Below are positions 41,693 through 63,328 of a stretch of 64,000 nt of DNA, piece after piece. The notes below the pieces were generated by a model, which saw nothing but the letters and a program-made list of their open reading frames with translations, did not search any database and was not told the DNA's origin. Positions within the stretch are counted from its first letter, which is position 1; every line of letters starts with the position of its first letter. Location: the NCBI GenBank assembly GCA_018806915.1, contig JAGKQI010000097.1, forward strand, positions 806,001 to 870,000. Reading direction: 5' to 3'. Made by a program: the position numbers and the translations under genes. Source of the DNA: Phytophthora colocasiae. Lineage: Eukaryota; Oomycota; Peronosporomycetes; Peronosporales; Peronosporaceae.

Positions 41693-43042
41693 TGTGGTGA
41701 AGCGCGAATAAAAAATCCGAGAAAAGGCAACGTCAGGCCCTAAGAGAGTCGGATCAAGCGACAGGGGCCTCTGGCGAAGCAAGATGTCAGTTGATGACCC
41801 CAGATTGCGCGAACGATGGCTGACGAATGGATCCAGATCGATGTTCGTCTGGATCTCGCCAGCGATGAATGGATGGCGTCTTGGTCAAGTGAGACTAAGT
41901 GATTGGAGAACCCGTCGTGCGGTCCCGCGTGGCGGCTCAGGGTCGGAGGAGAAAAGGGCGCCTTGCCTGAGGTCGCATGAGAAGGAGATCAAGGCGGCAG
42001 AGGGTCGGGATCGGTGTGATCTATGGTGGGCCGGTGACAACATAACCGTGAGATGCTGCCGAGGGGACCTGATGGCAGTGTTAGTCGCGTGGGGAGTGGT
42101 GATCAAGTCTGGGAAGCTCAAGACCTGGAATGTCGACGACGCAGGCACGCGAGATCAAGTATGAAGGCTGCTGATCGGGATCATTGTTCAAGACGGTGGA
42201 CCAAGATCGATGACCGAGATGGTTGATCGAGATCGGCTGATCGCCAGATCGGCTGATCAGCTGATCGCCAGATCGACAGATCGGCAGATCGAGATCGCGA
42301 TCAGGGGTTAGGTGAGATCAAGATCGAAGATCGGAAGGGCAGCTGTGTAGCCGGATGTCAGGTAATCGTAGGATAGCAGATGAGGATGGGGCTAGTAGAC
42401 ATAGGAATAACCATAAACAGAATCGAATTTGCTCTGGACATCACAAGTGCCTTCGTTCAAGACCGGAACTGGGAATTACATTGGCCCCCCGGCATCAAGA
42501 AGGTAAGGAGAAGAGATCTAGCATAGAGGTTAATTCTGGATAATACATTGGCCAGTTTTACCCTATCTAGTGATCTATCCTTTACGTGCGAACTACGGAT
42601 CGGAAGGAATTGGCTGCTTGGCCTGACGATCTCGTCGACTCTCAACCCATCAAGACACCCGCTATAGGAAGCGGCAAGCATCGTAAAGGAAGGGATCAGA
42701 TCCCCAACATTGGACCTTTGGAAGACCTGGATCGAAGACCAGGTGACCGGATCAAGGCTCGAGAACTCGCCTGTGACCCGGATCAACCCCTCCGAGGTAG
42801 AGTGAAGTATTCCCACGCTATCTCACACCCCCTACGTCACCCAAGACATTCTTCTCGTCCCAAGACATCTTCAGAAGTCACCTGGAAGAGCGTAACCCGC
42901 CTACCGACGGGTACACAAGGTGAACACTACACGCAGCAAGATCACGGATCATCGGGGGACCCCCTCCGTTAGTCGGTGTCTGGGCGCAAGTGGCGATCGC
43001 GATCGGCCTCAACCAGATTTTGGCCAGATCCGCTCCACCACA
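41693..43042 (+). repeat. Gypsy-2 3' LTR, 1,350 bp
   Basis: Matches the 5' LTR except for an extra GATC-rich stretch of about 33 bp near 42255 and a few small indels. Confidence 0.92.
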
Positions 43043-43046
43043 CATG

Positions 43047-43892
43047 TACACCTCCTCCTCCATGTCACCGTTGAGGAACGCAGTGTCGACGTCAGTTTGA
43101 TGACACTCCCAATCCATAATTGCAACAAGTGCCAACAGAACACGTAGTGATTCTAGTCGAATTACAGGAGCAAATATTTCGTCATAGTCGATGTATTTAA
43201 CCTGCTCAAAACCTCGGATCACCAACCTTGCCTTGTATCTTTCAACGTTTCCGTCAGCATCATACTTAATTTTAAAGATCCACCGCGAAGTCAAAGCCTT
43301 CTTACCATTCGGTAGATCCATAAGTTTCCACGTGCCGTGCGATATTAGAGACTGGCCTTCTTTGTCGATCGCCTTCCTCCAGTGTAGTGCATCGGCACTC
43401 GCCATTGCAGCTTGATACGTCTTCGGTTCCACAAGTACGCCGAGCTCGGAAATCTCACTGTTCTCCATCTTACTAATCAGGTTTTCTGTTGCCACCAATG
43501 CTTCAGCATGTAGTTGCTTCTCCGAGAGCGTATTTCCAGCAAACATGGTAAGCGCTTGTAGCTGAGATCCATGGCCTTTGTCCTGCGATAGCACCTGATC
43601 ACCTCCCCTTCCATTGTACGTGCTAATGTCAGGAAGATTTACTATCTCTTGCTGGAGGCCATGTACGTCAAATTCCCGGATAAATTCATCTAAGTGGTGA
43701 AGCTCATCATGTGTCACGGAGCTATCATCATTATCTGAAATTGGTTCTGCATAAAACACCAAGTCAGGTACTGATGCTGCAATACAGCTTGGCTGAATAT
43801 ACTCCAACGAAAGTCGTCTACCCAAACGAGCAAGCTCCAGCTGCCGAAGCTCCATTGTACTGTAGCTATTTGATTCATCGAAAATAGCATGA
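43047..43892 (-). pseudogene. Copia-2 RT N-terminal part
   Basis: The segment between the two Gypsy insertions. It carries HAIFDESNS and the acidic linker after integrase, then RT words WKLMDLPNGKKAL, SRWIFKIKYD, YKARLVIRGFEQV, DVDTAFLNGDMEEEVYM. At the end it breaks exactly at the Gypsy-2 CATG duplication. Frame is intact throughout. Confidence 0.92.
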
Positions 43893-43897
43893 CAAGT

Positions 43898-44213
43898 TGT
43901 AACGGGGTTACATTGAAGAGTGACTTTAGTCACTCTTCCGAAGTGGATACATTTGGTGTGTCACACATCATGGTGACACGTGGCAGGTGGCTCCGCAGCC
44001 ACCTATCACCTTCTATATAGGTTACACTATAGATATCTTTTAGTTTGTATTGCAGGCCAAGCTAACAAGTATCTATAATATATTCAGTCTTAAATCTACC
44101 TAATCTTTAGTTAGTCTCCCCAAGTCTTTGGGGACCGAGTGAACTGCCGTTCACTAGGAGTTTGTATACTCCAAGCCTTCCTCTGTGTGAAGTGCTGTGT
44201 GACCCCCGTCACA
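43898..44213 (+). repeat. Gypsy-3 5' LTR
   Basis: Contains stem-loops, for example 43915-43938 (11-bp stem, 2-nt loop), 43985-44004 (8-bp stem) and the terminal GTGTGACCCCCGTCACAC. TGGTAGCACTTG just inside may be the primer binding site. Confidence 0.93.
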
Positions 44214-44297
44214 CTTGGTAGCACTTGTAGTCAATCCTACGCCTACGCGGGTAGATTGATTACCTGAATCCTCTGTGGCCAGAAGTAGTTGGCCACC

Positions 44298-45302
44298 ATG
44301 GATCGAAGTGAGTTTCCTCACTTGACCGACTCTCAGTTTGAGTCGGCCCGGAAGATGGCGGGCATCTTTGGGATGGATGCCTTCCGAAGCTTGGCGGCGG
44401 CGACGCCGGCCGAGCAGGTCGAACGCGTGGCGGCGTTCGACATGTACGAACGTGGGCTCATTGAGCACGTTCGAGGAACCTTTGAGGCTCCTGTGGTTGA
44501 ACCGAGGCCGGTTCAACCCAAGCCTTTAAGACTCAAGGTTCTTCCCTATGAAGGGAAAGAAGGTGAAAACCTTCACTTCTGGATCCGAGAAGTTGAGCTC
44601 GCCATGGAGGCGGCTCTCATCTCGGTGGAGCGACTTCGGGTCGCTTTCGCGCTGTCTAACCTCGGGGGTCGAGCGAAGACATGGGCGTACACGCGCGAAG
44701 CGACGTCGCCTGGATGTTTTACATCCTGGGCCCAGCTGTGCGAACAGCTTCGGGCCGCATTCCTCCCGGCGAACTATGAGTATCGCCAGCGGTCACGCTT
44801 CCTAGCCTGCAAGCAAGGGAAACGTGACCTGCACGAGTACATCCAAGAGATGCGCGTTCTCGCGGCATCTCTGGTAGGGAACCCCCTACCTGAACACATC
44901 CAAGTAACTGTGTTCATGGACGGCTTAAGAGTAAGCCCGGCCCGCACGCAACTGTTCCGCGTGCAGGTCAACACGATGGAGGAGGCGATTCAAGTCGCGC
45001 TCCAGGAGGAGTACAGCCATACACAGGCTCAGACTCCTGCCTCTGCGTGACAAGGTCACAGCGGGCCGACGACGGCGTCGGCCAGTGCTCCTGGGAATGG
45101 AGCAGGCTCGGGACCAGCCCCTATGGACTTGGGGCTCGCCGAGCAGAAACGCATCCGCTGTTTCGAGTGCGGGCGTTTCGGACACTTCGCACGTGTCTGC
45201 CCCTCTGGGGGGCAATGGAAGAGGTCTTCCAAGCCTCAAGGCTCTAAGGGCCGCTGGAAGAAGCCGGCGCCCAAGAGTCAGGGGAACTCCGGGGACCAGT
45301 AG
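44298..45302 (+). pseudogene. Gypsy-3 gag with in-frame TGA
   Basis: Starts at the ATG in GCCACCATGG (44298). The capsid-like region has LPYEGKEGENLHFWIREVE, LGGRAKTWAYTR, LRAAFLPANYEYR and LHEYIQEMRVLA. A TGA at 45048-45050 interrupts it after 250 codons. The same frame continues to TAG at 45300 and encodes the CCHC knuckle CFECGRFGHFARVC and a basic tail. The knuckle in the same frame argues that the TGA is a nonsense mutation or a readthrough codon. Confidence 0.85.
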
Positions 45303-45303
45303 G

Positions 45304-45900
45304 GGCGGGGCGCCCTACTGGGGAAACACTAAGTCCCCATGCGGGTGGTGCGGGAGGCACACGCAGTGGAGACTTAGCCCCAGAGAGTCTTGGGACTCTC
45401 AAAGCGGAGAAGGGCAGCGGTGGGCTGCTGGTGGTACACGCGAGTGTACGGGGTTTAACAACCCCTTTAGAGTCTTGATAGACTCTGGGGCGAGCAAGAA
45501 CTTTGCTCGCCGACAAACTGTCGCAAGGAATCGCGGCAAGTTTGAGGACGCTCTACGTGAGAGCGAGGGAAGTGGGCTAGTCGCCGTACGACTAGCCGAT
45601 GGTACGGTGGTGGAAGTACCAAAGGTCCAGGTGGACCTGGCTGTGAAGTTTGAGGACTTCGACAGCGTGGAGTCGTTCATTGTCCTCGAGATGGACAAGT
45701 GCGACTTGATCCTAGGGATGCCGTGGCTTGAGAAGCACGAGCCCTGGATCGATTGGCGCGGCAAAGCCATTGGGGCTAGCCGGCCTGCAGTCTCTGACAG
45801 AGCTTTGGTGAGTCATGTTCCCACCTCTGTCAGGACTAAGGGCGTTCGCTGGAACCGCCAGGACGCGGCAGCGTCCGAGGAGTATTTGGGGCTGGTGTAG
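45304..45900 (+). pseudogene. Gypsy-3 protease region
   Basis: Frame +1 relative to gag. It encodes an aspartic protease with FRVLIDSGASKNF (active-site DSGA), ADGTVVEVPKVQVDL and CDLILGMPWLEKHEPWIDW. It ends at TAG 45898-45900. The pol reading continues directly in the same frame, so protease and RT are separated only by this amber codon. Confidence 0.86.
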
Positions 45901-48900
45901 TCGGTGCTACATCGCCCCACACGAGAAGTGATCGTGGGCCATGGATGGCCGGGGCAACGGGCGGAGGCCCTTGCCCTACGTGTGGAGTCTGCAACGATAG
46001 CAGGGCCCCACGCACGAAGTCGCAGCGACGTACAGGCTGCGACTGTGGTAGTGCCCGAGAGCACTAACCAGGTGGGTAACTTAGGTCCACAAGCGGATCA
46101 AAGAGTTCCGCAGGAAGCCAAGATGGCTCGCGATGCCGAAGTAGTGGCATCGCCAGGCGTACGAGAAGTAGTTCGACGCCAGGTCGCTCAGACCATAACT
46201 GATGCGGGTAACAGAGTTCCGCATGGAGCCACGAGGGCTCGTGATGCCGAAGTAGTGGCATCACCAGGCGTGAGAGAAGTAGTTCCACGCAAGGTCGCTC
46301 AGACCATAACTGATCAGGAAGACACCAAGGGTGCTTCCGATGCGGGTAACGCAGTTCCGCACGGAGCCATGAGGGCTCGTGATGCCATCGTAGTGGCATC
46401 ACCTTGCGTGGGTAAGTTAACCCCACGCCATGGTCGTAAGCCGGGGTTGGTAGAATACCATCCCGAAGAAGTCCACGAGGACTTGGGACAGGAGCTAAAG
46501 GCTCCTAGGTCACAGTCGGTCGAAGAATGCTATCACATCTTCGACGGCGTGACCGGGCATCGCGTGAAGGCGGGGGCCATCGAGTTGGCACCCCTGCCTG
46601 AGGTATCAGAGCTATTGAACCTCGAGGAAGTCGCGATGGAGGACTTTCTGGCCGAGTTGAAGGCCGGGGAGATATCGGAGATGGTTCTCCTTAGGCCGGA
46701 GCCCACTCCAGAGGAGTTGAACTCCTCCTCAGTGATGGACGAAGACGTCCTGGAGGAGTTCCGGAAGCAACGTGCGTCGCGCACGGGCTCCGAGATTCTG
46801 AAGAATCCAAAGGATCCGCTGTATCCTTTAGTGAAGGAGTTTGAGGACGTGGTGTCCAAGGACCCACCCTCAAAGCTCCCACCAGACCGAGGGATCAGGC
46901 ACGAGATTGATCTCGTGCCAGGCACAAAGTATTGTGTCACGCGTCAATGGCCCCTGCCCCGAGAGCAGAGCGACGTCATTGACGCGTTCTTCGCCGCTAA
47001 GGCGAAAGCGGGAATGGTGCGGGAATCGAAGTCCCCGCACTCGACGCCAACCTTCTGTGTTCGCAAGCCGAACGGGAAGTGGCGTCTGGTTCATGCTTAC
47101 AATAAGCTGAACAGCGCGACTGTGCCAGCACAGACGCCGATCCCTCGCAAGGATGTGTTGTTGAACAACATGGCCGGCTGCACGCTGTATAGCGCGCTGG
47201 ATCTGGTGGATGGATACTACCAGATCCTGATGCGGGAGTGTGATATCCCGCTCACGGCCGGGAGCACGCCGAGCGGTATGCTCTGGGAGTGGCTGGTAAT
47301 GCCACAAGGTCTATCCAACGCACCAGCGACCTTCAATCGCTTGGTCACACAGTTGTTTAGACCTTTGCGTGCGTTCACGCAGACGTACTTTGACGATATA
47401 TTCGTCCATAGCCGTGCCGAGGGAGGCAAGACGGCTATAGAGGTGCATCGAGAGCACCTCCGTCGAGTGTTTGAGGTCATGAGAGCTAACAAGCTCTATG
47501 CCAACATCGACAAGTGCGTCTTCGCAGCTGAGGAGATTAAGGTCCTCGGCTGCTTCGTCAGCAGCGTCGGGGTCCGAGCGGATCCTGACAAGGTCAAAGC
47601 CATTGCGGCATGGCCTGTTCCTCGGTCACAGAAGGACCTGAGGAAGTGGTTGGGCTTAGCCAACTACTTGCACAAGTACAGTGCTGGCTATGCGGGACTC
47701 GCAAAGCCTTTGTCGGACCTTCTGAAGAAGGAGGCCGAGTGGTGCTGGGAGCGCCAGCACCAGGATGCTTTTGATAGCATCAAGGCGAGCTTGCAATGCG
47801 CGCCCGTCCTGGCGTTGCCGGACGATGCCAAGTCGTTTAGCGTTGTCTGTGACGCTTCCGACTATGCAATTGGCTGTGCGCTATTGCAACAGGACGATGA
47901 GGGACGAGATAGGGTGATCTCGTTCCAGTCCAGGCAGCCGAAGGCTGCCGAACGGAATTATCCCGTTCACGACAAGGAACTCTTGTCGATGAAGTATGCC
48001 CTTGTCAAGTTCAGGGTGCATCTTCTGGGCTCAAGGCCCTTTGTGGTCTATACGGACCACGCGTCCTTGCGGACAGCCATCCATACGCCGCATTTATCGC
48101 AGCGGATGGCGCGTTGGCTGTCATTCTTCGCGGAGTATAACTTCCGCGTTGAATACAAGCCTGGCAAGCTCACCACGCTTGCCGACGCTTTGTCGCGCAG
48201 GCCCGACTATGAGTTCGCTCATATTAGTCGGGCCACGACGGATCTTTACGATCGAATACGCTTGGCGTATCGGGACGATGACGCCCTCGCCCCTATTGTG
48301 CGGTATTTGTCCGCTGGCACGGATGCCAAGGTCGAATGGCTTACGCCTCGACAGCGGGCACGGCTCCACCGCTATGAGTGGGCCGATGGCCTGCTCCACT
48401 ATCGGGTGGAGCCCGGGGATCCTCCGCGGGTCGTTGTTCCGAACGACGAGGATCTGAAGTATGATATACTTCACGAGGCACACGATGTGCCTTCGAGTGG
48501 CCACTTGGGCCGAGAGAAGACCTATCATGGGGTCTCTCTGATGTTTTGGTGGGCCCACATGTACAAGTGGGTGGCCAAGTACATCAAGACATGTGAAACA
48601 TGTCAGCGCGTGAAGCCAGCGGGGCACGCGTCGGCTCCGCTGCAGAGCCTGCCAGTCCCACTGGACTGCTGGAAGTCGATGAGTCTCGACTTTGTCTTCG
48701 GCCTTCCGGCCGATGACCAGAAGAACACCGGCATTGTGGTGTTTGTATGCCGGTTGAGCAAGATGGTGCATCTTGCTCCGGTCTCTGAGACCATTACCGG
48801 GGAACAAACTGCGAAGTTGTTCCTTGATAGCGTCTTCCGCTATCACGGGTTGCCTGAGACTGTTGTCTCTGACCGCGACCCGCGGTTTACCGCTGCGTTT

Positions 48901-49278
48901 TGGAAAACGCTGTTCCAATTGCTTGGAACACGGTTGACGATGTCAACAGCGGACCATCCGCAGACCGATGGTCAGACTGAGCGCGTCAACCGAGTGGTTG
49001 AGGACGTGCTGCGCAGTGTTTGCGCTGAGGCGCCGCGCTCTTGGTCAGCGCAGCTGCCTATGGTTGAGTTTGCACTCAACAACGCGGTACACGCGTCAAC
49101 GGGGTTCACGCCGTTCTACTTGAACGGGCTTCGAACCCCAGGTGCCGCTCACACTGGGTGGGGCACCGCGGCTTCGAGTAAGTGGGGAGAGGCTCGGAAA
49201 GAGCTTTCCTCCCAGGTTTCCGTGTGGAACCAGCCGCGTTGCGGAAGAAGTTGTCGACATTTGTCGGCAACAGGCTGA
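45901..49278 (+). pseudogene. Gypsy-3 pol: RT, RNase H, integrase
   Basis: An open frame of more than 1,120 codons. An N-terminal spacer holds three copies of a 40-45-residue repeat (about 46080-46420). RT has VRKPNGKWRLVHAYNKLN, ALDLVDGYYQI, MPQGLSNAPATFNRL and catalytic YFDDIF (47386). RNase H has VCDASDYAIGCALLQ. Integrase has the HHCC zinc region (SSGHLGREKTY, CETCQRVKPAG), core aspartates in LDFVFGLP and SDRDPRF and glutamate in TDGQTERVNRV. The usual VDRLS reads VCRLS (Asp to Cys) just after the first strand. The frame breaks near 49195. Confidence 0.9.
46080..46420. repeat. Three coding tandem repeats of about 120-145 bp in Gypsy-3 pol
   Basis: Each unit encodes a variant of VPxxAxxARDAEVVASPGV followed by VAQTITD. 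Each contains the hairpin GATGCC...GGCATC. Confidence 0.88.
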
Positions 49279-50384
49279 ATGTGATCAGCCGGGTGCGAGA
49301 TGCAATGGCACTCGCACAGGACAAGCAAAAGGAGTACTCAGACCAACATGGGAGAGGAAACTTAAGTGTATTTAATGTGGGTGACTTAGTGCTACTCGAC
49401 ACTAGGAACCTACCTCTTAACACTGTTAGCTCCACGGTGAGCAACAAGTTGAAGCATCGCTTCATTGGACCCTTTAAGGTCCTGAGTAGGCACGGTGCTG
49501 CCTACACGATCGACTTGCCTAAGTCGATGACGACCCACCCGACGTTTTATGTGGGTCGTCTGAAGCGGTACCATGACCCTCAGGGTCATGCGGCCCCTCA
49601 AAAGGTTGAAGGCGGCCGCGAGGAGGAGAGTGAACCTCCTCGACGCGAGGTTGAGCGTCAGGCGCCGAGCGCCCCAGGTAATAGGGAGTTTGGTGACTCC
49701 CAGGGGCGAAGCCGTACCCCGGCGGAAGGTACGAGCGGTGTGAATACACCGAGGGGCCAAAGGAGTAGGCCCCTAGGCGAGAGTCGAACGACGACTGGGA
49801 GTACGCGTACGGTTGCGACTCCCGGCGAGACATCGTCGCCTGAAGGTCGTAGACCTCTTGACGAAGAGAGTCAAGTGCCCGCGAAGGGGCACTACGGTCT
49901 ACACGACCATGAAGATCCTGCATCGCGAGACGCAGGTCTTCCAACTGGCGCAAGACACCAGGCAGGTCGGCTGCAGGGGCAGCTTGGCCGCCATGCTCAA
50001 GACCAAGAGCACCCTCAAGCGCAAGGACACGCGCTCGGAGGAGACGGATCTCCTCCTGTTGCTCAGCAACAAGTTGGTCAAGAGGCCCAGTCGAAGGCCT
50101 CTGAGTCCCCAACGTCGGGGACGGCTCGAAAGAGCAGTCGAGCGAGGCCTCCTCCGGCTTTGCTTGACCGGAACGGAGAACGCCACTACCATGTGGAGCG
50201 GGTTCTCCAGGAGCGGCGTCGCGGTGGGAAGCGCCAGCTCCGAGTGAAGTGGCGCGGGTACCCTGCGTCGCAGAGTACCTGGGAGCCGATTGAGCGGCTC
50301 CAGGTTGACTGCCCGAAGGCTGTCGCGTGCTGGGAAGAGGCACGGCGGCAGCCTCGTAAATGTCCGCGGCTTCTTAGCCGCTGA
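49182..50384 (+). pseudogene. Gypsy-3 integrase C-terminus, low-complexity linker and chromodomain
   Basis: Continues integrase after the frame break: LSTFVGNRLNVI, FNVGDLVLLDTRN, KHRFIGPFKVLSRHG, HPTFYVGRLKRYHDP (GPY/F module). A linker of about 190 residues rich in Gly, Ser, Arg and Gln follows, then a chromodomain (HYHVERVLQERR, LRVKWRGYPASQSTWEPIERL). The linker's composition is probably constrained by the antisense coiled-coil ORF on the opposite strand. Confidence 0.85.
49519..50343 (-). CDS. Gypsy-3 antisense ORF, coiled-coil part, overlapping the sense chromodomain ORF
   Basis: An open frame of 274 codons directly opposite the pol linker and chromodomain. Its middle forms a regular coiled coil (LDQLVAEQQEEIRLLRARVL, LRQLEDLRLAMQDLHGRV, LDSLRQEVYDLQATM), and the C-terminal part is rich in Tyr, Ser and Pro. 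Heptad quality is better than chance antisense translation would give, so I treat it as a probable coding region. Two frame changes (near 50340 and 50960) would link it to the antisense ORFs upstream. Confidence 0.5.
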   Translation of the reverse strand: MPLPSTRQPSGSQPGAAQSAPRYSATQGTRATSLGAGASHRDAAPGEPAPHGSGVLRSGQAKPEEASLDCSFEPSPTLGTQRPSTGPLDQLVAEQQEEIRLLRARVLALEGALGLEHGGQAAPAADLPGVLRQLEDLRLAMQDLHGRVDRSAPSRALDSLRQEVYDLQATMSRRESQPYAYSQSSFDSRLGAYSFGPSVYSHRSYLPPGYGFAPGSHQTPYYLGRSAPDAQPRVEEVHSPPRGRLQPFEGPHDPEGHGTASDDPHKTSGGSSST

Positions 50385-51702
50385 ACGGGGTTGGAACACA
50401 GATGTATGTGTTCCATACCCGCGCTCATTGTGAGCGCTGGACTGAGACTCAGTTCTCAGTCGCTCCATCTTATGATGGAGCTGCCGTTTGCCTACGAGGT
50501 GGGCAAACTGGACACGAAGGTCCCGGAGGCGGAGGATGTCCTCCAGGTGATCTTCGTCACGGAGTTTGTGGTACTCCTGGGTTGACTTGACTGTCAACCG
50601 GACCCATTGCCAAAAGAGGTCCTCAGCGTCGACCCACGACGCAGTGTTCTCTGGGAGAACCCATGGGTAACCCCATGTGGGCTTGAGACCACCCTTAGTC
50701 TCAGGCTTCTTGCGAAGCGAGGTGAATTCCTTGAGAGGAATTCGGTGCTGTGCTAGAAGCACGCACCTGGCAACAGAGAGGTTGCCTTGAAAGAGAGGTT
50801 CTTTCTGAACCAAGGCCCGCTCATAGGCGCCTTTGGAGTGTATGGCCCCTATGAGAGGACGTGGGTCCTGGAGCTGCTCGAGATACGCAGCAGCTCGAGC
50901 CTTGATCGGGCGGGTAGTATCCCCGCTGGTGGGCAGAGTCCTCATCGTGTTGATGAGACTCACGTGCGACCGTTGGTGCGGTGCGCATTGGCTGTTGAGC
51001 AGCCTGAAAGAGCTCTTGCTGCTCATCGAGATCGTTAGTGATCTCTTGGGGCTCATGGATGAGCCCCTCCTCCTCATCGGCGTCATCGTCGACGTCGTCG
51101 GGGCCGAAGATCTCTTCGAGCTCCCTTCTCCTTGTCATGTCTTGACAAGGAGACTGTGAAGCATGACGCTTCTTGGAGTTGGTGCTGGGCACCTTCTCCT
51201 CTGCCAGAATGGCCCGGGCGCGTTCGCGCCCTTCAGCAAGTGTCAGATGTCTGACAGGTGGTGGCGTAGTGTCGCCACCACGGCCGCTGGTGTTGTCGGG
51301 AGACTTGGACGCGGTGTCCTTGTCTCCATGGTGCTCCTCCGTGGTTGGAGCACCCGCCGCAGGCTTGCCCTCGGCGTCGCCGTTGTCGCTCTCGTCGCCC
51401 GAGTAGCTGACAAGAGTCGCTTCCTGTTCGGAAGGACTCCAGGAACCGGGACTATGGTCCCTATACTCGAACCGAGGATTCGGTCGAGTATCAGGCGGTA
51501 GGGACGGAGACCTACTGCGCCTTTGGCTAGGGCTAGCCGTCGCAGCAGTGCTGCTGGGCGAGCTAAGAGCCCTGGAGGCCACATCGGTGGCCTCATGAAG
51601 TGCCGAAGCCTTGCCGCGAGGCTTGGCTGGCTTGGAAGTTGGCTTTGCAGCCTTCTTCCGTGAAGACGCTTGCGCGTCTGGGTTTGCACCCTTTGCAGAC
51701 AT
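50340..51702 (-). CDS. Gypsy-3 antisense ORF, N-terminal and middle parts
   Basis: Starts MSAKGANPDAQ at 51702. It begins with a Lys/Ala/Pro-rich then Ser/acid-rich disordered region, and an acidic stretch (DDVDDDADEEEG). After a frame change near 50960 comes a well-composed region with LEQLQDPRPLIGAIHSK, ERALVQKEPLFQGNLS, LKPTWGYPWVLPENTASW, LFWQWVRLTVKS, RLRDLRVQFAHLVGKRQLH. No family is recognised. The sense strand here has no long ORF, so this 1.4 kb is explained only by the antisense frame. It ends facing the pol gene. Confidence 0.6.
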
Positions 51703-51884
51703 GTTGCTGGGCTTCCAAGGAAGCCTGGTACGCGTTGGCAGTGCGCCCTGTGCTCTGTGAGAGCAGAAGCCGCAGCGATAAGAGCTGGCGGCAGGTCGAT
51801 CGATTTCGACATTGAAGAGAGAAATGTGAAAGGGATTTTCTCTCTTCTCTGATTGGACGAGAGTCGAATCTAAGTGGGGGAGGA

Positions 51885-52203
51885 TGTAACGGGGTTACAT
51901 TGAAGAGTGACTTTAGTCACTCTTCCGAAGTGGATACATTTGGTGTGTCACACATCATGGTGACACGTGGCAGGTGGCTCCGCAGCCACCTATCACCTTC
52001 TACAGTATAGGTTACACTATAGATATCTTTTAGTTTGTATTGCAGGCCAAGCTAACAAGTATCTATAATATATTCAGTCTTAAATCTACCTAATCTTTAG
52101 TTAGTCTCCCCAAGTCTTTGGGGACCGAGTGAACTGCCGTTCACTAGGAGTTTGTATACTCCAAGCCTTCCTCTGTGTGAAGTGCTGTGTGACCCCCGTC
52201 ACA
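51885..52203 (+). repeat. Gypsy-3 3' LTR
   Basis: Differs from the 5' LTR by a 3-bp insertion near 52003 (CTACAGTATAGG against CTATATAGG), so this is a fairly recent insertion. Confidence 0.93.
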
Positions 52204-52208
52204 CAAGT

Positions 52209-54494
52209 GCTCACAATTTTACCTGTACCACACAGCAAAACCCGCCACGCCTTTTGTGTGTCCGCGTATCCAACAAATATTCCTCGTAAACTTCGATTAT
52301 CCAATGTTTTTCGCTTTCCGGGTGTCGCTGTTGCCTGCAGCGATTTCACGTGTGTCTCCGTCACGTACGTGTACGCAATTGAACCAAACACTCGAAGTAA
52401 ACTGTAGTCAGGCGCCGTACCATGCCATCTTTCGAAAGGAGTCACTTCACTTCGATGTAGGGGGCTACGGTTTGCTACGTACACCGCCGCATGAACGGCT
52501 TCACCCCAGAACTGTTTCGGTAGCTGAGCAGCAATCAACATCGATCGGACTTTGCGGAACAGTACCCTGAATCGCACCTCCGCGCTGCCATTCTGCTCTG
52601 GTGTACGAGGTGTAGTTGTCCTACGAGCAATTCCTTTCTTGTTACAGTATGCGATCCAGGCGGGAGAAATGAACTCACCCTCGTTATCTGAGTTTACACC
52701 AATGATTCCTCGTCCGTGCTTGTTTTCAGCTTGTTCTACGTATTCCTGAAACTTTTGGATAGCTTCCGATTTGTGCCTTAACAAGTACACAGTCATATAT
52801 CCACTCCAGTCGTCAACGATGAGATGTACATAGCGTTTTCTTCCAAATGAATCCACTTCAATGGCTCCTTTGAGATCTGTGAACACCAATCCGTTAACTT
52901 GCTTGGCATGATCGGTATTCGTGTTTTTGAAGGACGCCCTTTGTTGGTTTGCTCTTATGCATTCGTCACACACTGGAAATTCTCTTAGTTGGCGATCAGA
53001 AATTTGAATCCCTGTTGTGCTCCTTTGTTTAACCAACCTCGCAATATTCTGATAGCCCAAATGACCCAAGCGAGAATGCCACAGCTCAATAGTACTCTGA
53101 CCAACTCCAACGTAAGCGTGAACTTCAGATGTATTCTTTTGATTATGTTCAAACAGATACAGATCCACGTTCGGGTCAATCACCGACCATACAGTGATTC
53201 CATCCTTTTTGAGTGTTGCTCGATCTTCATACGTCTCCAGATCACTTCGGATGCCCTTCTTCCGTAGCTTCCGAACGCTCAACAAATTCTTGGCCAGTGC
53301 AGGTACAAAGTAGCAATTCGAAAGCTCCAATGTCACAAAACCGCCGTTTTCGTCCTGCAGTATTACTTCAGCAGTTCCGACACCGCAGACTTTCACAGCT
53401 GAATCGTCTCCAAGCTGCACATTCGTGTCCATCTCCTCAATTGTACGGAAGTATGACTTTTCACTCGTCATGTGATGCGTAGCTCCGCTGTCCAGCACCC
53501 AATACTGCTTTTGGAGTGTTGCTTTACCACGTTGATCCACATTGAGAATCGTTCCGGTTACCTTTGGGATGATTGCGACGGCTCCCCATTTGACCTCCCT
53601 AGTAGCCTCAGCTACATTTGCACTAGCTGTCTTGTTCGTGTCTGTTTCTCCTCGTTCTTCGTCATGCCGCTGTTTCATGGGGCATTCTCGTCGAAGATGA
53701 CCTTTCTCACGACAGTAGTAGCACACAGAGCTCTTGTTACTGCGTTGTTGGTAGGGATGGCTATGTCGCTGACGGTTGTTCCAGGGATGTTGTTTGGACC
53801 TTTGTTCGAATCCATTTGTCCCTACAGTCGTCGTATTTGCCACAGCCAGCGCTTCATTAAACTTCGCTGCTGCGATATTGGCTCCAACAATCTTTGAGGA
53901 ATTTGTCCCGGTCTTCCTGGTGTCCGCCTCGAGTAGAAGCTTTGCCTGAAGTGTTGGCCAGGTTAGACTCTCTTGGTTCTGGCAAACGGTGACCAGATTG
54001 CTCCACGTACTTGGTAGCGAGTCCAGCATTTGTAGACACTTTTCAGCGTCATCGATCGGTCTCTGAAGTCTTGATAACACCTCTGCTTTGTCTTCGAGCT
54101 CGTTAATGTGACTCTGCATGTCCGATCCGTCTTCGTACTGTAGTGAAATGAACTCTTTGCGCGCCCTAGCAATACTGACTGTACCACTTGCAGCGTACAC
54201 GCGCTCCAAGTGTTCATACACCAGCCATGACCTGTCGTATTTCTTGACTGCTTTCACGGTTGCATTGTCCAGAGAGCTAATCAAGAGGTGAAGTGCCCGC
54301 TTATCGCGTCGAATGAAGTCGTCCTGGTCCCTTGGATGCCAGCGGTTATCGAATCGTTGAGTACTGGTTACAATATCCCAGACACCTTCGGTTTCGAGTA
54401 ACGTTCGGATGCGAATCTTCCACGCTTGATAATCGGGCGTCCTAGAGTCGAAATTCCAGTTTTCCTTCCACGATGATTGCTTCTGCGCATACAT
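52209..54494 (-). pseudogene. Copia-2 gag, protease and integrase
   Basis: Starts MYAQKQSSWKEN at 54494. UBN2-type gag (DYQAWKIRIRTLLE, LISSLDNATV, LDSLPSTWSNLV), CCHC knuckle CYYCREKGHLRREC, protease WVLDSGATHHMTS, GAG-pre-integrase (LWHSRLGHLG, CDECIRANQQ), and integrase with FTDLKGAIE, VNSDNEGEF and PEQNGSAEVRFR. The reading is open without a break until the Gypsy-3 CAAGT duplication. The gene is inactivated only by the nested insertions. Confidence 0.92.
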
Positions 54495-57553: not shown

Positions 57554-57939
57554 CTGCCCCCAAGCTCTTCAACGCCTGCTGTGAATCACATCTTGTTGTC
57601 GTTCAGTCGAATTGCCTCGTTGCATTTATTGCACAGCCAGTCCACCATCTTCAACGTGTTGCAGTGTTACCGGTTGGTATCCGCAAGATTTGCACCAATT
57701 CAATTTCAGCCAATCAGATCTCGATTTGAAGAGTTTCAGCCAATTATAATCCGGGGTTTCTTTGAGCGTCGAATGTATTGTCGTTATCCAGGCGATCGAA
57801 TCCAATTTTTTGTAGATGCCCTCCAAGTACCTGTATCCAGCGTGTGTATAGGTCTCGAGTTCACATGAGCCATATTCAATCACTCACGCGTCATGCCTTC
57901 TCAAAATGATGATCGATTTTGGAAGGATGTCGCTATAAC

Positions 57940-59248
57940 TCAGCTTCCAGCACTGCTTGTGACCTCACGCTGCTTGGGTTTGATCATATCAAGCACTGCA
58001 CGCTTGAACAAGGCATCGTCTGAGTCATTAGCATAGTTCCGAAGTAGTTGAGGCACGTCTTCTCCCATTGTCTTTAGAGGTTCCAATGAGTCCTCGATGG
58101 GTTCCAAGCCCATCCATTTGACCTTGACCTCATACGCCCCCATATCTGTGTTCACTCGATGCTCCACGAGCCTCTCTACAGCCAATAGCGTCCCCTGGGA
58201 AGCGACGTGGTCCGTTGACGTCAAGAGAGTCATCTGCGTAGAATTTTAGGCGAGACGGGTGCACATCCATCGTATTGCCGTTCACCAAGTGTTCTACCGT
58301 GAAGTAGTAGTCTGTACTACCCACAATACGGTACGGACCAACCCACATTATTCGCATTTTGTTTGCATGCAGCTTGTCATCGACACGTGACCGTAGCACG
58401 TAGTCACCAATTGAGAAGTTGATCTTTTTTGCATAGTGGGGGCGATCCCGGTACCTTTTGGATTGGCGCTGACGCTCAGCCTCCACAGCCTTGTGCATGT
58501 TCATGACACTTTCTCTCAGATTGGCTAGGAGCTCGTCTATCTTCGGCATTGGCTGAGTCAGCGTGATTACACGTCCTTTTTCTCCGGGAAGGAAAACAGT
58601 GTCCAGAGTGCTGGGGCACGGTAGTCCAGTAAAAAGTTCAATCGGAGCGTGATTCGCTAGTGATCGCATCGGAGAATGGTTGATACTAGACTGTACTAGT
58701 GGTAGAAGGTAGGGCCAGTCTGTGATGCTGACCTTGAACTCCAGAGCCAGGGCTTTCAATACTTGTAGAATGTCCCTGTTCACGCGTTCCACCGAGCCGT
58801 TCTTCCGCGGTGTGTAGGCTAGAACGAACTCTTGACGACCCTTCAGGCGTCGGCTCAATTCGGCGATCACCTTGTTCTTAAAGTGTGAACCCGTATGGCT
58901 CACCCACACTTTCGGTGTGCCAAAGCGGCTATGCCAATCTAGCATACCACTCGCAGCTACCTCAGACGTTGCACTGTCACATGCCACCAGCTCGACAAAA
59001 TGCGTGGCCTCATCCTTGAGGACCAGTGCGTATCGTGACGTTCCGAACGATTCGCCAAGAGACAAAAAGTGCCAGTGCAAAGATGCATTGCGTTCGTAGG
59101 TGTGGTGTGTTTCGCTGTATGGTCGAGGTATCACATTCCCGCCTTTGACGTGTAGGCAAAGTAAACACTTCGAACAGAAGTCACGTACGAGCTCACTCAA
59201 ACCTCCAATCGAAAACAAACGCTTGATGTGATTCTGCATGACGTGCAT
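57940..59248 (-). pseudogene. Gypsy-4 integrase and chromodomain, both catalytic Asp replaced
   Basis: After the zinc region (FCSKCLLCLHVKGG) the core reads LHWHFLSLG and WVSHTGSHF, where this integrase type normally has Asp in place of the fourth-position and central His (codons at 59069 and 58895). The glutamate of NGSVERVNR is kept. A GPY/F-like part (IMWVGPYRIVGS) is followed by a frame change near 58215 and the chromodomain ERLVEHRVNTDMG, VKVKWMGLEP. With both aspartates lost, the enzyme should be inactive. The 3' region 57554-57939 carries a short ORF also present in the sister copy but no recognisable domain. Confidence 0.85.
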
Positions 59249-61875
59249 GCCACGATGTCCGTTCTGTCCGCAATGAGCATGATCATCAGCCGCTGAGTTA
59301 GCGTAGTTGCCTTACGAGGTATCCAAATTCGTCCGTCCACTTGCCACAAGTCATCATCGCGTAGAGAAGCACCCTCTGGAGCAGTGTGCAGCGCTTGCTG
59401 GCTGCCAATCTCCTCTAAAGTAGGCCACACAAACTCTTCGTCGTCAAGTGGGCGTAACCTTACCACCTCAACACTCCTCGTTGTCTTAGAGTGTTTCTGT
59501 TTCCCACGGGTAAATCGCTTAGCAGAATGTATGCGTGCTGTAGGTTGAAATCCCCCACCCCACCGCGAAATCAGATCTGCCCAAACATTATGCACACCTT
59601 CAATGTGCTCGATCGTGTACCGGTATTCCACAAGCTTAGTAGACCACCTTAGCAATTTGCCGCGTACATGTTTCTTCAACGCCTTGCTGGGGCTGAACAG
59701 GTATATGATGTTCCTGTGGTCACAGTACAGCTTGAACCCCTGTGGCCGTAGTAACAGGTACTCCAACCTTTCGCACGCGTGAACGATTGGGTATGATTCT
59801 TTCTCGATGACACTCCAATTCAGAGCTGAGCCAGTGAAGCTGCCTCCCATGCACACCAGAAGTTCATGTTGTTGCTCATGGATGGGTACGTTGGGCTGCC
59901 ACTCATTCACTTGAGAGACTACAAGCCCCCATCCGTAGTCCGAGGCGTCACTGAGGACGCAAAGCTGCTTCGTAGGGTCGGGGAAGGTTAGCATAGCTGA
60001 GTTACCAAGCAGTTCCTTCACAGCATTAAAACTCGCAGCTTCATCTGGAGTCAGGTCCAGTTTGACTCCTGCAGCCGCTCGTTTGGTCTTCTTTGTACCT
60101 GTCAGTGCGGCATCAAGGCGTTCTTGCAAAGGTCTGGCCACCCTCGCATAATCCACTAGACCAGCCCTCATCCAATTACTGGCACACAGAAACTGTTGCA
60201 AGGCGGCGGCGGTGGTTGGTAGCGGCATGTCTCGCAAAGCCTGAATCCGCTCTGGATCATGTCCGATACCATGCCGATTAATGATACGGCCACACCACCG
60301 TACTTCAGTTAAAAACAATGCGCTCTTTTTCGGGTTGAGTATGAGCCCATGCTCATCCAGTTTCAACAGAATCGCCTCTATTGCGCCCACTAGCTCCTCT
60401 GCAGTGTCCGCAAAGGCCAGCAAGTCATCTATCCACACAATCACGCAAGTGTTCACCAAATCACCTAACACCATTTCAATCGTAGCCTGAAAATGCAGTG
60501 CAGCATCCGTGCTACCCTGCGGCACTCTGGTCGGTGTAAACACACCTCGGTCTGTCATGTACGAGAGAATTTCCTGGCAACACTTTGCCAAAGGTAGCTG
60601 CCAGAAACCTTTTAGAAAGTCGAAAAGTGCATAGAACATCTTGCCTTTACAATGCTCAAGAGCCACCTCAAGGCTGGGCATTACGCCAGCAATGGGTTCA
60701 GTCACTGCATTCGTCGGTCGATAATCCACTGTCTGCCGAAATTCACCTGTAGTGGGCTTCTTCACCGGTAAAGCAGGGCAACACCAGCGGCTTTCCCTAT
60801 TTTCGTATACCCAGCCGAGTGACACGAGCTTCTTGTTGAACTCTGCCATGAATTCAGACTTCTCAGGGCTATACTGTCGAACTTTGCAGCGATAAGGTGT
60901 TGCATTAGGCTTCAATCTGATCTTTAGTGGGGGTACACGCGCAGGAGGATCATCGCCAAGCTCCAAACGCCATCCACCGTACTTTCGAACGACCTCATAC
61001 AATCGACTAGTTGTATACTCGTCAATAGAGCCGCTGTCGATAGCATCTCGCACTAAAGCATCAACGACATTCGTCACAATGTCACCAACGACAGGTTTCG
61101 CGCATGAGATTCCCTCCGAGTCGCTGTACGGATCATCATCTTCGACTTCCCGCGTCGCTAGATATTCCAATTGTTGATCCACATCAATTCCAAGATCGGC
61201 CAGTAACAATTTCCCGACAATGAATTCATCTTCATCCGCCTCGACAACTAGACATTGCTTAGTATCTTGACATCTGACAGGACCAGCCGCCGTATTTAAA
61301 GTCAGTCGGACGTTAATTGCATGCGTCGAGGTGAGCATAGCTCCACCAACGGCTCTCGAAATGATTGGTGCATCCAGTTCGACAAGCGCTACAGTCGCAT
61401 CCTGCTCGCAGAGCAGATCGACGTGCTTGCGCGAAATGATGTTCATATCCGAGCCGCTATCTGCACAATAGGGAATGTCGAGCAATCCGTTGATCACCAC
61501 TGTTAGGGAGTTCCTCCTATCTCCCGTAGACGGTGCATCAACACGCTTCGACCTGAACTTCTTGTTTTTGTCATTGCTGGCTGACCGTTTTGCTTTTCGC
61601 TCGGCCAAAAGTTTGTCCTTTTCAGCCTCGTCCAAATCCGGGCACTGGCTCAGCCAGTGGTCTTTACCACATTGAAAACAACCAGTCCGTGGCTTGCTTT
61701 GTGTCGCAGCAGGCGGCTTCGGTGCTGCCTGCGTAGGCACAGGGCGAGAATGCCCAGGAACACGCTGGACCTTCCTGTCCGTGTTAGACCTATTGTTGTC
61801 TTGCCTAGTTGCGCCCGGCTTGGTGCTAGTAGCAGCACGAGAGTCATTGTGTTGGTGCTTCCGTTTTGCCAGCAA
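59197..61875 (-). pseudogene. Gypsy-4 zinc knuckle, protease, RT and RNase H
   Basis: 892 open codons. The zinc knuckle is C-X2-C-X3-H-X4-C (CFQCGKDHWLSQC), one residue shorter than usual. Protease YCADSGSDMNIIS. RT has FRQTVDYRPTN, ALFDFLKGFWQLPL, RVPQGSTDAALHFQ and the catalytic WIDDLLAFA with Trp in place of the usual aromatic Tyr. RNase H has LSDASDYGWGLV, NWSVIEKESYPIV and YCDHRNI. It breaks to another frame near 59265 at the integrase zinc domain. Confidence 0.88.
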
Positions 61876-61889
61876 CTGATAGATCCTCT

Positions 61890-62579
61890 CTTGCTCCAGC
61901 GCCTTGTCTTCACCAGCGAGTATAATGTACTCTCATCTGATTTGCAGCTTGCGTCTACAATGCGGAGATGTGTATCAACAGCCTCTCGCAATGCTGCAGG
62001 CTCAAGATGCTTCCTGAGGATGTTACATTTTTCCTTCACCCCCGTCTCAGTGGAGAAAATAGTAGCCATGCCATGTTGTAGGATGATCTCGTCGCAGCGC
62101 ATGAAATAGTTAATTACACGCGCTTTCACATCACGCTCACGTAGGTCCATCTTCGGTTCGTCATTAAAAATGGCATCAACGTTTAGAATCGCGTCATTCA
62201 TGACAGTGCCGATTATCTTGTCCAACTCTTCGATGATACGCTCTTCCGTAACGGCTTCAACAGTCGTGCCCCACTCAAACTTGCACAGAGTGGTTAGCAA
62301 CTGTCGATTAAACGAGTTCTTGACACTCCGCAAAGCCTTCCCTCTATCTTCAACAGTGACATCACATCGAGCTTCAATTGCCTCCTCGTACTCTTGTCTT
62401 TCACGCTTCCATTTGACCAAGGAACTGTGAGAGATACTCGTCACGTACGGTGGCGTAATAGATGTCGATGTCACGGGAATAGAGGTAGATATCGGTGCGT
62501 CGTTGTTTACTTGAGCAGCAGTCGCATCAGCAGGTGCTCTTTGAGAGCCTTGGTTGGTACGGCCGCTGCGAGTCCGCAT
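61890..62579 (-). pseudogene. Gypsy-4 gag
   Basis: Starts MRTRSGRTNQG at 62579. A disordered Thr/Ser/Pro-rich N-terminus is followed by a helical capsid-like part (SLVKWKRERQEYEEAI, RQLLTTLCKFEWG, VINYFMRCDEIILQHG, LRKHLEPAALREAVD). A frame change near 61925 separates it from the downstream zinc-knuckle frame. Weak similarity to known gag; assigned mainly from position. Confidence 0.75.
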
Positions 62580-62607
62580 CGATTGCACGATAGACTAAAG
62601 TTAACTT

Positions 62608-62941
62608 TGTGACGTGCTCACGATTTGGGAGCTGGAACTCCCGTAAGCCAACGTGTATTGCTTGTTGCTTGTTGATCCCAAGGTAAGTTGGAAAGTGATC
62701 TTCCTACTCTAGTTCTCAGAGCGCACTCGCCTACCATGCTAGTAGTACAGGGAGAGCGCCCTTGTATATTGCGTCACGCATGCACGAGTGCAAGTGCAAG
62801 TGCAACCAGCTGTAGTCCTTGTCCTCTGAGGTGCTAACAGTTGGAGATCAGCTTAACTATAGTTTCACACAGGTAGAGCCAACTACGTTGGCTGCGGGTT
62901 GAAGGAGCTGGCGTGTGAGCTGTGAGCTTGCATTTACAACA
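62608..62941 (-). repeat. Gypsy-4 LTR shared between two tandem copies
   Basis: Serves as 5' LTR of the 56642-62941 element and as 3' LTR of the remnant to its right. It has small indels relative to the left LTR (an extra CCC near 62640, a missing TTG near 62777). Confidence 0.82.
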
Positions 62942-63328
62942 CTGCCCCCCAAGCTCTTCAACGCCTGCTGTGAATCACATCTTGTTGTCGTTCAGTCGAA
63001 TTGCCTCGTTGCATTTATTGCACAGCCAGTCCACCATCTTCAACGTGTTGCAGTGTTACCGGTTGGTATCCGCAAGATTTGCACCAATTCAATTTCAGCC
63101 AATCAGATCTCGATTTGAAGAGTTTCAGCCAATTATAATCCGGGGTTTCTTTGAGCGTCGAATGTATTGTCGTTATCCAGGCGATCGAATCCAATTTTTT
63201 GTAGATGCCCTCCAAGTACCTGTATCCAGCGTGTGTATAGGTCTCGAGTTCACATGAGCCATATTCAATCACTCACGCGTCATGCCTTCTCAAAATGATG
63301 ATCGATTTTGGAAGGATGTCGCTATAAC

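Follow-up and report, generated by a model that had tools for sequence, protein, structure and literature searches.

The 64,000-nucleotide stretch of the Phytophthora colocasiae genome analysed here (the window; GenBank assembly GCA_018806915.1, contig JAGKQI010000097.1, positions 806,001 to 870,000 of the forward strand) contains a Ty3/Gypsy long terminal repeat (LTR) retrotransposon whose sequence is densely strung with short perfect Watson-Crick hairpins, a trait common to its copies, and related families in the same genome carry hairpin chains with other stem lengths. Counting perfect inverted repeats with a stem of at least 6 bp and a loop of 2-12 nt (the criterion used unless stated otherwise), the element (43898-52203) holds 175, or 21/kb, as compared with 18.5 +/- 4.3 in 30 dinucleotide shuffles. 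The excess is found in coding and non-coding parts alike, as the first-pass annotation of this DNA, made from the sequence alone, had described. With the same criterion the rest of the window yielded 2.7/kb to the left of the element and 3.6/kb to the right, the share of bases inside stems (loop up to 14) was 29% in the element and 4-5% outside it, and the hairpin count per kb steps up, and then down, at the two element ends. The excess is confined to short loops, with loops longer than about 25 nt occurring near the shuffled level, and the longest perfect stem in the element is 11 bp.

Synonymous-codon shuffles (200 per coding region) showed the same excess within each of the four coding regions, where the number of perfect hairpins lay above the maximum of all shuffles: 19 in gag 44289-45050 (mean 3.2, maximum 8), 64 in the pol open reading frame (ORF; mean 11.4, maximum 22), 22 in the chromodomain ORF (mean 4.0, maximum 10) and 17 in the antisense ORF (mean 2.7, maximum 7). 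That base composition, codon usage or protein sequence would produce the hairpins as a by-product is barely conceivable, as dinucleotide and synonymous shuffles fall 5-10 fold too low and rule out an origin in composition or codon usage, even though a few hairpins do sit on conserved motifs and recur at the equal place in other families. With loops of 3-9 nt, density per kb was 19.8 in gag, 20.4 in integrase, 11.9 in the reverse transcriptase (RT)-RNase H part, and 15.3 in both the LTR plus leader and the antisense part. As it stays high in gag and integrase and is moderately lower in RT-RNase H, hairpin density tracks protein constraint only loosely.

All eight hairpins that had been listed as examples are present, and some of their stems are longer than first stated (8 bp at 44447-44473, 45064-45083 and 50462-50481; 10 bp at 44495-44518). 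A stem nearly every 15-30 bases was an overstatement, with 154 non-overlapping stems of at least 6 bp in 7987 nt and a median centre spacing of 30.5 nt, and the run of about ten hairpins described in 48240-48500 contains five with a stem of at least 6 bp. The contrast that had been drawn with neighbouring elements holds for most of the window, where hairpin counts are at or near chance, but not entirely, since the gypsy element at 57557-63245 has a weak excess of 5-bp stems (35 vs 20.5, z 4.5; 4 bp, z 2.8).

The hairpins are arranged as tiles. Among 168 hairpins there were 19 overlapping pairs, compared with 66.8 +/- 8.1 under random placement, and 33 gaps of 0-2 nt where 11.2 were expected, so that hairpins rarely overlap and often abut. 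Stems in the element are mostly 6-8 bp long, and 4 nt is the most frequent loop length. None of the stems of at least 6 bp has a loop of 0, which rules out palindromes of the DNA-binding kind, and packaging loops bearing a common motif are likewise ruled out by the variety of loop sequences (11 distinct among 15 three-base loops and 31 distinct among 35 four-base loops). Codon phases that pair third positions with third positions are under-represented relative to synonymous shuffles (28 of 105 vs 678 of 1830). The 5' arms of stems of at least 7 bp in 43898-51884 are rich in purines, with G at 0.368, A at 0.236, C at 0.226 and T at 0.169, and more weakly so in the fourth family described below.

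Windowed folding, which had been proposed as a check, gave a concordant result. Predicted folding energy per 200 nt had a mean z of -4.75 to -4.77 on the sense strand and -5.37 to -5.40 on the antisense strand, and z fell below -2 in 41 of the 42 windows of either strand, the last of which extends beyond the element, whereas two control stretches of the window gave means of -0.04 to -0.40 (60 windows) and two other gypsy elements in it gave -0.16 to -0.46. The antisense strand of the element thus folds more strongly than the sense strand (p 0.015), and G-U pairs make up 6.3% of predicted pairs as compared with 13.7% after shuffling, or 0.46 of the shuffled level.

Three further groups in the same genome can be compared with the element. 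A sister family, with an RT-integrase region 72% identical in protein, has about 40 rows listed in the genome; three copies were fetched, which carry 7.9-8.2 hairpins/kb of at least 6 bp, and the stem-length spectrum was taken from one of them (L030, loops 3-9). Its pol contains 76 stems of exactly 5 bp (17.5 expected) and 8 of 6 bp (4.4 expected), while the region around gag contains 26 of exactly 6 bp (2.7 expected) and 1 of 7 bp (0.4 expected). The next outward pair is Watson-Crick less often than the 26% expected (13 of 89, p 0.02; 2 of 28, p 0.03), as if longer stems were avoided; in this copy lengths are nearly quantised, at 5 bp in pol and 6 bp around gag. A third clade (loci L037-L042), found with protein P0109, which is 62% identical to the pol of the element, has 7.4-8.8 hairpins/kb and 13-23 stems of at least 8 bp per locus, with an excess mainly at 7-9 bp in L037 and L040, the two loci analysed. 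A fourth family, sampled in 2.5 kb of L016 and 4 kb of L043, shows its peak excess at 9 bp (26 stems vs 0.1, loops 3-9), has 45 stems of at least 8 bp in L043 and, unlike the element, includes 7 stems of at least 7 bp with a loop of 0. The dominant stem length differs between these three groups and the element, and stem length therefore goes with the family. This fourth gypsy family is even more hairpin-rich, and pieces of it adjoin or lie within copies of the element (L016 1-2561; L021 from 5763).

Most hairpins of the element and of its sister occupy different places. Of 337 stem pairs at aligned sites in the pol of the element, 48% are Watson-Crick in the sister, compared with 21-30% when the alignment is slid, and 153 of the pairs that remain Watson-Crick are plainly unchanged; among doubly changed pairs, 9 of 28 are complementary. 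Of 75 sister hairpins, 18 share their centre with a hairpin of the element (at least 5 bp in both), vs 6.3 +/- 2.4 in shifted alignments, which is above chance, yet a minority. Stem codons do not show raised amino-acid divergence from the sister (0.259 vs 0.264), which is what stem building at synonymous sites would predict. Co-variation of both arms was another check proposed at the outset. None of 36 shared pair-level variants among copies of the element was two-sided. Some complementary double changes occur in the third clade. In L037/L038, which are 93% identical where aligned, 373 pairs include 9 double changes (about 1 expected), of which 5 are complementary; the reverse direction gave 4 in 399 pairs, 3 of them complementary, with 1.2 expected, and L037/L040 gave 9, 4 of them complementary, with 7.7 expected.

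Variation among copies of the element bears on when the stems matter. The family was listed at about 30 places in the genome at an identity of at least 82%, and 20 further copies were fetched (L009-L028, about 8.5 kb each), with 14.7-21.5 hairpins/kb when flanks and nested insertions are counted. The window copy defined the stems and the 20 others supplied the variants, a private variant being one found in one copy and a shared variant one found in two or more. Private variants were equally frequent in stems (256 in 2293 sites, 0.112) and elsewhere (696 in 5920 sites, 0.118), whereas shared variants were scarcer in stems (35, or 0.0153, vs 205, or 0.0346; p 5e-5), indicating that changes arising after insertion ignore the stems and that those passed on through retrotransposition avoid them. 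The equal frequency of private mutations also rules out repair of stems in resident copies. Defining stems from a single copy lowers the shared stem count somewhat, since that copy may itself carry the breaking allele, and we judged this bias too small to account for the deficit. When a third copy defined the stems, stem divergence was 0.71 of non-stem divergence. For stems of at least 6 bp, the ratio of stem-breaking to stem-making variants was 185:44 among private and 32:22 among shared variants (p 0.002; 1023 variants entered the count, and 174 others were excluded for want of a clean window).

Two readings had been offered in the first-pass annotation, selection for ordered structure and a template-switch process that keeps writing palindromes; the stem-variant deficit, the tiling, the density in conserved parts and the lack of extra amino-acid change favour the former, and template switching as an ongoing process fared poorly. 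Among copies, a complement within 60 nt accompanied 1 of 155 multi-base clusters (0.65%, as compared with 0.25% for random changes), and cluster tests across eight pairwise comparisons gave 4 matches in 374, with 4.7 expected. We favour, with a probability of roughly 0.55, selection during retrotransposition for an overall hairpin fold that is built mainly at synonymous sites, because switch footprints are lacking, density is not closely tied to protein constraint and stems show no increase in amino-acid change. The excess over dinucleotide and synonymous shuffles, the strong folding energies, the chains of other stem lengths in related families and the low share of G-U pairs also speak for this reading. 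In each round of retrotransposition, copies that fold into a compact string of local hairpins would fare better; point changes, mainly at synonymous sites, would build hairpins and breaks would be purged, with the position of an individual hairpin hardly mattering. With less confidence, the scarcity of G-U pairs and antisense folding at least as strong as sense suggest that the fold may serve both polarities, so that folding may be required of minus-strand cDNA as well as genomic RNA, or of antisense as well as sense RNA. The benefit is conjecture: the RNA might be kept compact and closed to sense-antisense annealing and to small-RNA targeting. Phytophthora 25-nt small RNAs are reported to arise primarily at transposable-element loci (PMC3804510), and structured viral RNA is reported to be poorly sensed in fibroblasts (PMC3950689).

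Several observations weigh against selection for a fold. Perfect stems are favoured far above stems with one interior mismatch (9-26 fold over shuffles vs 2.8-4.9 fold), the opposite of what is found in phage MS2, the yardstick taken for a structured RNA genome (2.5-3.1 vs 3.9-5.6 fold), and such a preference resembles what the authors of a study of Nematomorpha palindromes ascribe to copying (PMC6649704). When stem-affecting variants were counted irrespective of direction, private and shared variants did not differ significantly (p 0.18-0.29), and wrong polarity could therefore create part of the difference between breaking and making. Defining stems from any copy weakened the contrast (p 0.013), which was absent with such stems in gag and pol alone (p 0.58). 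In ten comparisons within the third clade, unbiased stem divergence was significantly lowered in none and raised in one (p 0.03). These parts of the case for selection are weak, and any benefit is a guess.

Of the alternatives, we regard as unlikely, if a serious contender, a mutational origin in which the reverse transcriptase or a host polymerase switches template within its own strand and perfects imperfect inverted repeats, so that hairpins pile up passively and the protein filters what is tolerated. It would fit pairs that are almost purely Watson-Crick and strand-symmetric, the preference for perfect over near-perfect stems, the turnover of positions between families and the complementary double changes of L037/L038, and template switching is reported to be capable of both generating and restoring perfect stems in RNA genes (PMC8794818). 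The missing footprints and two-sided variants, the high density in conserved integrase and gag with a moderate reduction in RT-RNase H, and the normal rate of amino-acid change in stems speak against it, and on its own it does not predict that stems of a single sister element stop at 5 bp in one part and at 6 bp in another; an old, now silent palindrome-writing process may nevertheless have been at work. A comparison of G-U with A-C at interior mismatches has little power here (5 vs 3 in the element, 6 vs 3 in MS2) and carries no weight in these conclusions.

Distinctly unlikely, in our assessment, is selection on the sense RNA alone for packaging or stability, as in positive-strand RNA viruses, with strand symmetry as a by-product of Watson-Crick stems. 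Genome-scale ordered RNA structure shows folding energy beyond composition-preserving shuffles along the genome, with the sense strand folding better than the antisense strand, G-U pairs in use, and structures that have been demonstrated and that influence fitness or sensing. The energy feature is present in the element on both strands, and its size and genome-wide spread resemble MS2 (z -4.8 and -4.05); moreover, loops are C-poor (C 0.19 vs 0.27 in the rest) and one hairpin, over the stop codon of gag, has the look of a functional RNA element. The sense-strand signature is missing, however, since MS2 folds better in sense (-4.05 vs -3.36 antisense, p 0.045) and the element in antisense, G-U pairs are cut to less than half of the shuffled level as compared with 0.77 in MS2 (10.3% vs 13.4%), and the element far exceeds MS2 in perfect stems of 7-11 bp, those of at least 7 bp occurring at 16 times chance in the element and 3 times in MS2. 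Both show genome-wide local folding beyond composition that runs through coding sequence, while the element differs further in its family-typical stem length and in being a reverse-transcribing element of a host genome.

Returning to selection for an overall fold, we tentatively propose, at somewhat less than even odds, that these families represent an oomycete retrotransposon clade with an undescribed architecture, in which perfect hairpins, one abutting the next and able to fold on either strand, make up the whole sequence, genes included. Each family would have its own tuned stem length (about 5-6, 6-8 or 9 bp), with an upper limit in the sister, and most positions would turn over. Selection would act on the fold as a whole, probably because some step exposes both polarities as single strands, be it reverse transcription or the small-RNA silencing of coexisting sense and antisense RNA. 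The trait reaches beyond a single element and resembles genome-scale ordered structure without its sense-RNA signature. It shows how far protein-coding sequence can accommodate structure, and the occurrence in one genome of related families that differ in stem length offers natural replicates for asking whether, why and at what step folding is selected. If selection is the cause, genome-scale ordered structure would extend from RNA viruses to retrotransposons, and it could be tested whether folding shields transposon RNA from silencing or aids reverse transcription; if mutation is the cause, the element would be an extreme case of palindrome writing.

Searches of the literature, with limited reach into subscription journals, found no precedent for a hairpin-chain retrotransposon. 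Nematomorpha mitochondrial genes hold scattered coding palindromes with arms up to 284 bp, whose all-or-none identity their authors take as a sign of a copying mechanism (PMC6649704). These palindromes and the hairpins of the element are alike in being perfect inverted repeats in protein genes, kept perfect and shifting place between species or families, with few third-to-third codon phases; those of the element are mostly 6-11 bp, very many, abutting and in a retrotransposon, and a function is established in neither. The template-switch hairpins of RNA genes share perfect Watson-Crick stems with the element, but clustered rewriting of one arm is their footprint (PMC8794818) and was not found in the element copies. 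Described oomycete chromodomain Ty3/Gypsy elements (PMC5348765) have LTRs, gag, RT, RNase H, integrase and a chromodomain as does the element, which adds the antisense ORF and the hairpin chain; the abstract of that report makes no mention of hairpins.

One hairpin may have a function of its own. Programmed -1 frameshifting typically involves a slippery heptamer in the gag frame, a short spacer, a stem-loop and a pol frame open in -1. Positions 45281-45321 form a candidate module of this kind, recognised from the sequence and present in three related groups: a heptamer lies 8 nt upstream of a hairpin (45296-45321) whose 5' arm includes the TAG stop codon of gag. Copies that retain long frames terminate gag at this TAG and have a pol frame open in -1, with 1200 codons in L013 and 1577 in L031. 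The search motif matched 25 of 30 sequences (unmatched, L012, L016, L020, L025 and L039). The heptamer is GGGGAAC in 16 of 17 matched members of the family of the element and GGGAAAC in the remaining one, GGGAAAC in 3 of 3 sister copies, and AAAAAAC in 5 of 5 matched third-clade loci; GGGGAAC departs from the canonical slippery form X XXY YYZ. The loop GCGGGGCG is kept while inner stem pairs vary. An Rfam scan of 43800-52300 gave 0 matches at gathering score.

Table 1. Features of the element and its immediate borders, in window coordinates
Feature	Position	Strand	Remarks
Ty3/Gypsy LTR retrotransposon, hairpin-rich throughout	43898..52203	+	ORFs, domain matches, LTRs
Target-site duplication CAAGT, left copy	43893..43897	.	
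Target-site duplication CAAGT, right copy	52204..52208	.	
5' LTR	43898..44214	+	boundary exact to about one base
3' LTR	51885..52203	+	one 3-nt indel relative to 5' LTR
gag frame	44289..45302	+	family gag stop TAG at 45300-45302
Heptamer GGGGAAC, candidate -1 slippery site	45281..45287	+	putative function, from sequence
Hairpin over gag stop codon, 9-bp stem, loop GCGGGGCG	45296..45321	+	shared with sister and third clade
pol ORF: RT, RNase H, integrase	45904..49278	+	Pfam
ORF with SH3-like domain and chromodomain	49182..50384	+	Pfam
Hairpin chain example, five consecutive	50392..50508	+	50392-50415, 50421-50437, 50440-50461, 50462-50481, 50486-50508
Antisense ORF	50821..51702	-	without Pfam match

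The element is a chromodomain-bearing Ty3/Gypsy LTR retrotransposon (Table 1), with the domain order gag, RT, RNase H, integrase and chromodomain, a pair of LTRs and a 5-bp target duplication. It has moved recently, because the LTRs differ by one 3-nt indel and the target duplication is present. Perfect hairpins bound both ends of the 5' LTR (43898-43912 and 44197-44214), and in the window copy an in-frame stop leaves the gag frame open only to 45050. In other Phytophthora species, where relatives are known here as proteins only, the best named matches of the pol protein are 87% identical in P. ramorum and 84-85% in P. idaei, and the antisense-ORF protein is 89% identical to a P. citrophthora protein. 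The antisense-ORF protein has 69 relatives in the protein collection, those with names coming from several Phytophthora species, and 148 matches in the genome analysed here, pieces counted; some of the relatives carry the source label ABC superfamily, and a similar antisense ORF was judged by eye to be present in the fourth family (L016 1084-2112). Sequence searches among viral contigs and genome contigs yielded no relative that could be confirmed.

Finally, the element seems to be inserted into a Copia element, as the minus-strand ORFs that flank it (42878-43933 and 52101-54494) were judged by eye to resemble the two halves of a Copia pol. Between the protease and RT, 46093-46452 contains three imperfect direct repeats of 111 nt, with hairpins in each.

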